64,000 nt of DNA, taken from positions 27,716 to 91,715 of the forward strand of contig NZ_JAIETD010000027.1 in NCBI RefSeq assembly GCF_019745455.1. Reading direction: 5' to 3'. Numbering within the stretch: position 1 is the first letter of the stretch; each line of letters starts with the position of its first letter. The notes beneath the pieces were generated by a model. It was not told the origin of the DNA. It was given only the letters and a program-made list of their open reading frames with translations, and did not search any database. Source of the stretch: Methylobacterium sp. (lineage in GTDB: Bacteria; Pseudomonadota; Alphaproteobacteria; Rhizobiales; Beijerinckiaceae). Positions 57,319 to 59,472 of the stretch are shown here, one piece after another. Position numbers and translations under genes: made by a program.

Positions 57319-58074
57319 TCAGGGAAGGATAGGCTTGGGCTCGACGGCCCGCTCCGCCTCCACCAGGAGTTCGTGCGGGCTCCAGGGCTTTGGAATGAAG
57401 ACGGCTTCGGACGGGAGATCGCCGGGGCGGGCGATCGCCCGACCGGAAGTCACCACCATCCTGCACCGCGGCCACAGGGTCGAAACCGCTTTGGCGAGTT
57501 GCAGGCCGTCCATGGCACCGGCAAGCCGCACGTCTGCGAAGACGAGAGCCACGTCGGCGCCGCGTTCGCGGAGAATGTCGAGAGCGGCCTCCGCACTGTC
57601 GCAGCCGACGGCATCGAGATCAGTCGGCTCGAAGAGAGATTCGGCTAAGGCCCGCGTTGCGGCCTCGTCCTCGACGATGAGGGCGAGACGCCCGGATTTG
57701 TGCAAGCCAGCGGTGCCCGGTGGCACCTCGAGCGTGTGGGCATCTGATGCCGAGGGCTTCACCTGACGGACCAGTGCTGCCAGGTGCTCCGGCACGCCCT
57801 CCGCGACGAGATCGTCGTAGAAGGCTGCCAGAGCCTGCCCGATACGGTCCAGTGAAAGGCCTGGGTTCAGGCTGTTGTCGACGCCGAGGCCTCGTGGTGG
57901 GGAAGGAAGACTGGTCGCGTCCTTCCGCGCATGGACGATGGTCGGGGACGCTTCACGATCGGCCGAGAGGAGGCTACGTCCGAACGAGGTAGGACCCGAC
58001 GTTATGTCTTTTGGATCAACCAAGTCGTCATTCCCCTCGACGCGGTAAGCCACTCCATCGCTGCCCCGGATCAT
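57319..58074 (-). CDS. NepR-like anti-sigma domain fused to a response-regulator receiver domain
   Basis: A 251-residue protein. Residues 69-107 read LNPGLSLDRIGQALAAFYDD with VAEGVPEHLAALVRQV, matching the NepR pattern of two helices (IG..L...YDDLV.E.VP...L..L). Residues 129-243 form a receiver domain with E135-D136, the phospho-acceptor D181 in FADVRLAGAMDG and K229 in IPKPW. The first 65 residues look disordered. NepR sequesters the general stress sigma factor EcfG until phosphorylated PhyR binds NepR; a NepR-receiver fusion would put that switch under its own phosphorylation. No ecfG or phyR is adjacent. The start ATG is the first available. Confidence 0.75.
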   Translation of the reverse strand: MIRGSDGVAYRVEGNDDLVDPKDITSGPTSFGRSLLSADREASPTIVHARKDATSLPSPPRGLGVDNSLNPGLSLDRIGQALAAFYDDLVAEGVPEHLAALVRQVKPSASDAHTLEVPPGTAGLHKSGRLALIVEDEAATRALAESLFEPTDLDAVGCDSAEAALDILRERGADVALVFADVRLAGAMDGLQLAKAVSTLWPRCRMVVTSGRAIARPGDLPSEAVFIPKPWSPHELLVEAERAVEPKPILP

Positions 58075-58245
58075 CGGCCAATGACGTCGGACAGGTCCGG
58101 CGCTTACGGACGATGCTCCTGAGTCGCCCTCTTCGAAAAGTGGAAGCCACTGTCCGGACAGACGATCTAGCGCAGTCCCACGTTAAAGCTCTGAGCCCTC
58201 ATCGGTTGCGAAAATTCTAGGTGCAGCCGTTCACAACAGTGAGGA

Positions 58246-59472
58246 TCATTCGGCCTCGGCATAGGCCAAGACGCCAGCAACAGTGCGCACGTCACGGTAG
58301 CGCGCTCCGCGAGTGCTCATCATGGTCTCGAACTTCTCGTGGACCTGGGCCACCGACAAGCTGACCGCCTTCTTGCGTCCGCGCTGTGCAGCGAAGAAGA
58401 TCGAGCGGTTCGCACGCGCAGGTCCCGGCAGCATCTGAGCCGCGGCGGCCTTGGGCTTGTCGACGACCTTGGCCAAGAACTCCTCGGCGTCGTCGGGCCC
58501 CAGGAAGTGGGCGAGATAGACCTCGCCGAGGGAGAGTTCGCGCCCGATCCGAAGCGCGATCCTGGCGGCGTCGCGCTTCAGCATCTCGCCGGCCATCAGG
58601 GCTGACAGGTAGGGATCCCGGCGCAATTCGAGGATACGGCTGCGCTCGGCTGGGTCGGCGACGCTTGGCCGACCGTTGTCGCCGGAGAGGATGAGGGCGG
58701 CGTCCTGCGCGAGGCCGTACTTTGCCCCGAAGTCGCGGACAACGCCGAGCCACGTGCGTTCGATGAATTGGTACAGCCCAGTCGCCGAAGAGGTCTTGGC
58801 CTGAACCTCGGTGATGAAGCTCGATTCTTTGTCGGCCACGGCCATCAGCAGAACCGGATCGGTCTGTACTTCCTTGGCTGCGCGGACGATCTTCTGGACG
58901 AGGTGGCGCCGGATCTTCATCGGGCCGAATTCGAGGATGTCGTTGGGATCGCCGATCGCGCTCTCGGTGAGAAGATAGTCGTAGGAGACGCGATCGACGG
59001 CATTGGAGCCGACCTCCGTGTCGAGGTCGTGAACCGGGGCGAAGGCGGTGGCAGCCGTAAGGATGGCGGGCGCGGCAGCGAGAACCGCCGGGCTGGCGAT
59101 TTGGACGCGAGGTTTGGGCATCGGCAGCGGTGCGCTCACCGAGGAAGAGGCCACGGCAGGCCCGATCCCCACGGCGGAGAGGTCGCCACCACGGACCACG
59201 AGGGCGCCGAGGCCAGCGGCCAGCAGGGACATCGCGATGAGTGACCTTGCCAGGGCAGGTCGGCTGCCATGCTCGCGACCGACCCGGTTCGACACCGTGA
59301 TGGCGTCGCGGCATCGCTCGGCGGAGCCGGCGATGCCAGCAGGATGACGGCTGGAAGAGTACGTCCGTAGCGATCCGACTGTGCGACCCTGCATCTGCGA
59401 CTCGAAGCTCCCCGATTCCGTGGCGGCGCCTTGCGTTGAGGAGACATGCGTCGACACTTGTGGCGACAACAC
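58246..59472 (-). CDS. Lytic transglycosylase (SLT domain), membrane-anchored
   Basis: Up to 408 residues from a GTG at 59472. A hydrophobic segment near residues 78-97 (SLIAMSLLAAGLGALVV) anchors the protein; a Pro/Ala-rich linker follows and then an SLT domain with the catalytic Glu in AVADKESSFITEV and the SSATGLYQFIERTWL motif. It cleaves peptidoglycan glycan strands to anhydro-muropeptides. The N-terminal 75 residues before the anchor are of unsure reality; an internal ATG or GTG may be the true start. Neighbouring genes include an L,D-transpeptidase. Confidence 0.85.
   Translation of the reverse strand: MLSPQVSTHVSSTQGAATESGSFESQMQGRTVGSLRTYSSSRHPAGIAGSAERCRDAITVSNRVGREHGSRPALARSLIAMSLLAAGLGALVVRGGDLSAVGIGPAVASSSVSAPLPMPKPRVQIASPAVLAAAPAILTAATAFAPVHDLDTEVGSNAVDRVSYDYLLTESAIGDPNDILEFGPMKIRRHLVQKIVRAAKEVQTDPVLLMAVADKESSFITEVQAKTSSATGLYQFIERTWLGVVRDFGAKYGLAQDAALILSGDNGRPSVADPAERSRILELRRDPYLSALMAGEMLKRDAARIALRIGRELSLGEVYLAHFLGPDDAEEFLAKVVDKPKAAAAQMLPGPARANRSIFFAAQRGRKKAVSLSVAQVHEKFETMMSTRGARYRDVRTVAGVLAYAEAE

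Follow-up and report, generated by a model that had tools for sequence, protein, structure and literature searches.

Why are a NepR-like anti-sigma hairpin and a phospho-receiver domain encoded in one open reading frame of a Methylobacterium genome, and on which partner would such a protein act? According to a passage of PMC8103513, it was in Methylobacterium extorquens that the partner switch was first recognised, and in the papers covered here two-component control is exerted on PhyR, the sigma mimic. The gene that raises the question lies in a stretch of 64,000 nucleotides of Methylobacterium sp. DNA (contig NZ_JAIETD010000027.1), which is called the window here.

The fusion gene and its two domains

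A homologue search with the encoded protein found 273 homologues, and the species names among the best 120 of them are Methylobacterium. Conservation is given below as counts in a 120-row alignment made of the window protein and 119 of the best 120 of the 273 homologues, from which P0002, a shorter model of the window protein, was excluded. The features of the gene are the following.

57319-58074, minus strand: NepR-receiver fusion gene, 251 aa from the ATG
58021-58023, minus strand: alternative start codon TTG (residue 18, 234 aa), suggested by relatives as the real start
57760-57852, minus strand: NepR-like helix hairpin, residues 75-105, based on Pfam, hhalign, AlphaFold2 helices (low confidence) and dN/dS
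57817-57831, minus strand: hairpin residues L82, A83 and Y86, which correspond by alignment to L32, R33 and Y36 of S. melonis NepR
57694-57756, minus strand: variable linker, residues 107-127 (dN/dS 0.664; pLDDT below 50 over most of it)
57340-57687, minus strand: receiver domain, residues 130-245, based on Pfam PF00072, AlphaFold2 and Foldseek
57532-57534, minus strand: D181, phospho-acceptor aspartate (120/120)
57448-57450, minus strand: T209, switch threonine (120/120)
57397-57399, minus strand: F226, aromatic switch residue at the third position before the lysine (120/120)
57388-57390, minus strand: K229, active-site lysine (120/120)

The original prediction had placed a NepR-type hairpin and a full receiver in a single open reading frame, and this architecture is correct: NepR and Response_reg are the only families that Pfam finds in the whole frame, no sigma-like domain precedes the receiver, and the match to the PhyR NCBIfam model is confined to the receiver. 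The prediction also depended on a start codon upstream of the hairpin. Some close relatives have an ATG where the fusion gene has the TTG at residue 18, and no start model was found downstream of the hairpin; even the shortest database model, of 183 aa and beginning at residue 69, retains it whole.

The NepR profile search that had been proposed for the hairpin region did return a match, with a score close to the cut-off. On the whole frame, Pfam NepR (PF18557) scores 22.4 bits (E 9.7e-5, residues 76-104), which is below its curated cut-off of 25.7 bits; the 60-aa hairpin piece alone reaches 25.6 bits, also under the cut-off, and a genome-wide NepR scan gives at the same site 25.6 bits, or 25.9 bits when the frame neighbours are included, a value that the scan treats as passing the cut-off. 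In a comparison with PDB sequences, the hairpin piece alone matched the C. crescentus NepR 3T0Y without gaps at E 1.1, ranked after unrelated ATP-citrate synthase matches. Because this single-sequence signal is weak, the case rests on the family. The comparison by hhalign of the fusion hairpin with six canonical NepR sequences gave one gap-free match (probability 94%, E 1.3e-7), and 202 locus pairs with 80-97% protein identity yielded dN/dS ratios of 0.062 (hairpin), 0.664 (linker) and 0.087 (receiver). The hairpin is thus under purifying selection and is as constrained as the receiver; since its ratio is like that of the receiver and 90 of the 111 genomes of the genus carry the full fusion, the NepR match is not due to chance. 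We had considered a chance resemblance, which is ruled out by the conservation, the dN/dS values and the Microvirga pairs described below.

In the 120 aligned members, the hairpin core and the switch residues of the receiver are almost invariant and the linker is variable. The key hairpin positions are conserved in 119 (L82), 120 (A83) and 119 (Y86) of the members, and the only systematic change in the fusion hairpin is from Arg to Ala. As described in parts of PMC6599016, the in vivo function of S. melonis NepR is reduced by L32A or Y36A (L31 and F35 in NepR2), and the in vivo activity is retained in R33A and in its NepR2 equivalent, so that the change seen in the fusion equals the tolerated substitution. 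The NepR-like proteins of Microvirga also have Ala at the position of A83, with Phe in place of Leu. The kept Leu and Tyr, together with the tolerated Ala, make the hairpin appear compatible with PhyR binding.

The second domain has the residues typical of a response regulator receiver, namely the acid pocket (E135 and D136, each 120/120), the phospho-accepting Asp, the Thr/Ser and the Lys; D181 and K229 are located where the original prediction had put them. Pfam Response_reg scores 39 bits at residues 132-213 (cut-off 30.2 bits), nearly all of the 50 Foldseek matches listed are receivers, and the AlphaFold2 model (73 sequences) is confident over the receiver core, with pLDDT block means of 84-98. 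The hairpin is modelled as two helices (residues 75-91 and 97-103) at low confidence, with block means of 41-65. The model does not place the hairpin on the receiver with confidence, and it thus lends gating by the receiver no structural support. A regular alpha4 helix is absent from the receiver model, as it is from the CckA receiver and Sma0114 according to a passage of PMC9981736, and the profile matches of the fusion receiver include hybrid-kinase and CckA receivers. The FATGUY motif PFxFATG(G/Y) is absent from the fusion receiver, whose beta4 segment reads VVTSG (T209 120/120, S210 116/120, G211 120/120).

Spread of the fusion and of other NepR-receiver arrangements

The full-length fusion, counted from matches of at least 248.9 bits, is found in 90 of the 111 genomes of the genus. 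A second, more diverged fused family (matches of at least 228.5 bits) is found in 16 of the 111, ten of which do not have the first family. The 21 genomes without the first family therefore divide into these ten, one (G024) that has a hairpin and a dead receiver, and ten in which no fusion was found. In the second family (A6; L091-L096, L098, L099) the receiver looks intact and the N-terminal segment is at best weakly NepR-like, Pfam NepR giving E 0.012 in L095 and no match in L092; this family was set aside as NepR evidence on account of that weak signal. The locus of G024 (L097:605-1249) is a separate observation: the NepR hairpin is kept there, and the phospho-aspartate region is gone from the receiver fused to it.

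The surroundings of the gene are conserved as well. Its upstream neighbour in the window is

58246-59472, minus strand: gene that we take, from a reading of its sequence, to be lytic-transglycosylase-like

and the same neighbour is present in 68 of 68 loci (L008-L075) among the best 80 of 152 candidate places, which were kept from the genome collection; these 68 loci are nearly all from Methylobacterium or Methylorubrum. In addition, in seven genomes (three Methylorubrum and four others of the genus) one AcsA gene per genome passed the cut-off, at 5.3-6.1 kb from the fusion in six of them and at about 20 kb in the seventh.

The remaining 12 of the best 80 loci, which were located by search patterns in the receiver part, are all from Microvirga, and in each of the 12 a small NepR-like open reading frame immediately precedes the related receiver gene, overlapping or adjacent to it. 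The profile first used to rank these frames (nep2) contained one Microvirga-like sequence (l103), and the ranking was therefore repeated with profiles free of any Microvirga sequence. Among the 131-209 open reading frames per locus, the fusion hairpin profile then ranked the upstream frame first in 11 of the 12 loci (E 2.9e-7 to 0.54; third in L079), and the canonical NepR profile did so in 10 of the 12 (E 3.3e-6 to 0.14; second in L084 and L086). Three of the 12 small frames were scanned by Pfam, and NepR was the sole family match in each, at E 0.0013, 0.18 and 0.0027, with all three scores under the curated cut-off. In M. ossetica both genes are annotated, one for a hypothetical protein of 65 aa and the other for a response regulator, and they overlap by 20 bases.

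Beyond the genus, 22 other genomes of the family, taken as the best receiver matches of 51 outside the genus among the matches listed, so that pairs may be missed, were searched for a Pfam NepR match beside a receiver. Among the matches listed, the two were fused in two genomes (G276, G185), next to each other in the same orientation in two (G145, G273) and convergent at 0.53-0.58 kb in four (G261, G141, G206, G285), and no such pair was found in the other 14. For three of these genomes (G276, G185, G273) the NepR match is weak, with per-genome E values of 0.004 to 0.021. The sequences establish the fusion, its conservation, its intact switch residues and a recurrent pairing of NepR and receiver; the original prediction did not include the wide spread in the genus, the synteny or the split form. 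Further observations concern individual loci: in the genome of the window, a stand-alone receiver is followed by a 72-aa weakly NepR-like open reading frame (L007:889-1623, C30); in one genus of the family the receiver and nepR are convergent (L137-L140); and in another, a fused NepR-like/receiver protein has an altered receiver acid pocket (L089, L090). No NepR partner was found at the receiver loci L101/L102/L145, L104 and L142. The deep order of the receivers was not settled by the receiver tree, which makes no choice between the fused and the split form as ancestral.

A promoter-like site upstream of the fusion

The upstream region of the gene contains the following feature.

58185-58209, minus strand: putative EcfG-type promoter GCAAC-N16-CTTT, 330 bases upstream of the hairpin codons

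The published strict consensus GAAC-N16,17-SGTT occurs in 1 of 69 fusion loci and in 18 of 2437 background windows, and its near absence was at first taken to mean that there is no EcfG site. That view was replaced after a block conserved upstream in Methylorubrum, together with the GCAAC box of PMC7083833, led to the GCAAC pattern; in the part of that source concerned, only two -35 boxes stand out as the most frequent in Sphingopyxis GSR promoters, and GCAAC is one of them. Within 400 bases of the hairpin codons, G[GC]AAC-N15..18-[CG][GT]TT is found in 56 of the 69 fusion loci against 22 of 1813 background windows, and the form with GCAAC and CTTT in 48 of 69 against 4 of 1813. In the other 13 loci a GCAAC was matched when the -10 was relaxed and the range widened to 650 bases. 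It is important to consider that the GCAAC-CKTT motif, whose -10 is mostly CTTT, was recognised post hoc and that the loci tested are related to each other. The site in the window is farther upstream than those of the other loci (mostly 115-163 bases).

For comparison, GAAC-N16-CGTT is found upstream of canonical nepR in 9 of 9 genome entries (three Methylorubrum and six others of the genus), of which G009 and G301 share coordinates and are apparently one genome. The convergent nepR genes (L137-L140) have GCAAC-CGTT sites at about -60 in three of four cases, and the split Microvirga pairs lack a GCAAC-type site, which occurs in 1 of 12 of them and in 15 of 336 windows of background. The upstream site of the fusion gene resembles the EcfG type and is best described as putative.

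Partners and proposed mechanism

The canonical NepR (PF18557) has the same two-helix hairpin, aligned to that of the fusion without a gap, with the Leu and Tyr in common and possibly an EcfG-type promoter as well; however, it is a small separate protein in which Arg follows the Leu, where the fusion has Ala in 120 of 120 members, and its gene lies beside ecfG or phyR, whereas the fusion gene has other neighbours. In the genome of the window, the genes that we take from their sequences to be canonical nepRs lie at phyR (L001) and at ecfG (L002). PhyR resembles the fusion in that a receiver is joined to a module of this partner switch, but carries the sigma mimic where the fusion carries the anti-sigma hairpin, that is, the opposite side of the interface. 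An EcfG with a NepR-like N-terminal extension, of the kind that parts of PMC4814048 describe in Methylobacteriaceae, also has the hairpin fused to another module, but it is a sigma factor without a receiver. The FATGUY single-domain receivers (SdrG, MrrA, Mext_0407) are likewise linked to the stress response, and their relative Sma0114 also has no alpha4; unlike them, the fusion lacks the FATGUY motif, keeps its T/F switch intact and has the hairpin attached.

We propose, giving it slightly less than an even chance, that the fusion protein is a phosphorylation-gated PhyR antagonist that restrains the general stress response. EcfG would transcribe the fusion gene, which would provide a negative feedback; a histidine kinase would phosphorylate D181 and thereby expose or hide the hairpin, a second signal setting the brake; and the hairpin would bind the sigma-like domain of PhyR instead of NepR, which would return NepR to EcfG. 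This is the most economical reading; NepR2 and META2_0735 have been proposed to compete likewise for PhyR. According to parts of PMC4814048, META2_0735 of M. extorquens AM1 binds PhyR, lowers stress tolerance or response when overexpressed and behaves as a negative feedback regulator; S. melonis NepR2, in parts of PMC6599016, also binds PhyR and has the same kind of overexpression effect. Gating of NepR-type binding by the receiver is plausible because the switch residues are conserved, Microvirga has a split pair, and an EcfG-like site is present. We infer PhyR as the partner, control by EcfG and gating by the receiver from these observations.

As to the choice between PhyR and EcfG, the evidence leans to PhyR, with an EcfG paralogue as the second choice, because, of three NepR homologues examined in M. 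extorquens AM1, two bind PhyR and none bound an EcfG. In the parts of PMC4814048 concerned, META1_1275 binds PhyR without an overexpression effect and META1_2700 bound neither partner, and the authors state that some interactions may have gone undetected. If META1_2700 were the orthologue of the fusion, its lack of binding would count against the PhyR-antagonist model. This identity was first favoured from map position, and the acs synteny argues against it: the AM1 acetyl-CoA synthetase is META1_2531 in a passage of PMC5663086, and since the fusion is near acsA, its orthologue is expected near tag 2531, which would place it away from META1_1275 and META1_2700. For META2_0735, the 49 kb of the AM1 megaplasmid that were examined carried no annotation, and a clear NepR was not found in them. 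Most likely, the fusion orthologue was not among the three homologues studied in M. extorquens.

The second choice, a phospho-gated anti-sigma factor whose hairpin sequesters an EcfG paralogue not bound by ordinary NepR until the receiver releases it, is unlikely in our estimate. It would fit the genome of the window, in which we take at least two EcfG-type sigma factors to have NepR-like N-extensions (L003, C26; L004, C110) and one EcfG to lie beside nepR (L002). EcfG paralogues are many in Methylobacterium, and control of the remaining EcfGs by PhyR, notably of EcfG2, is expected by a mechanism still to be identified, in the parts of PMC4814048 that treat it. On the other hand, none of the three homologues bound an EcfG there, with misses possible, and according to the same parts the EcfG sets differ between species, whereas 90 of 111 genomes carry the fusion. 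We consider it improbable, to a greater degree, that the hairpin only takes the receiver to PhyR-kinase complexes, where it would compete for or drain phosphoryl groups as a sink or shuttle: the model without a regular alpha4, like the CckA receiver and Sma0114 (a passage of PMC9981736), and the profile matches to hybrid-kinase and CckA receivers would agree with it, but there is no FATGUY motif, the beta4 segment reading VVTSG, and the T209/F226 pair, present in 120 of 120 members, suggests that the receiver works allosterically and not as a shuttle. Equally little weight goes to a hairpin that no longer binds sigma factor or PhyR and serves only for dimerisation or as a partner tag, with the receiver in an unrelated pathway. 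The NepR score close to the Pfam cut-off, the Arg to Ala change in 120 of 120 and the conserved neighbours, presumably cell-wall and transglutaminase-like rather than stress genes, would be expected of such a tag; the kept L82 and Y86, the dN/dS of 0.062, the EcfG-like promoter site and the recurrent association with NepR-like partners in further arrangements argue against it.

The PhyR-antagonist model itself has points against it: the lack of a confident docking, the strict consensus in 1 of 69 loci, the Microvirga pairs without the site, the receiver of L097 without its aspartate and the 14 of 22 genomes in which no pair was found. With these taken into account, we still hold it nearly as probable as not that the fusion is the mirror image of PhyR, in which a receiver switches a NepR hairpin, fused in Methylobacterium and paired in Microvirga, and in which a second kinase input caps the response through an anti-anti-anti-sigma factor under EcfG feedback.

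The architecture is already visible in databases, where many of the best 120 of the 273 homologues have both Pfam domains and one is named NepR family anti-sigma factor. A NepR joined to a receiver was not found described in the literature searched, mostly titles, abstract openings and passages, and the word "receiver" is absent from the main text of PMC4814048; most likely, the published search for NepR homologues missed the fusion gene. A receiver on the anti-sigma side would add a second, independent phospho-input to the pathway. The fusion gene is a concrete candidate for the EcfG control in M. extorquens that is partly unexplained in the portions of PMC4814048 concerned, and through it a second phosphorylation signal would likely hold the general stress response in check, which would give the pathway a further layer of control.
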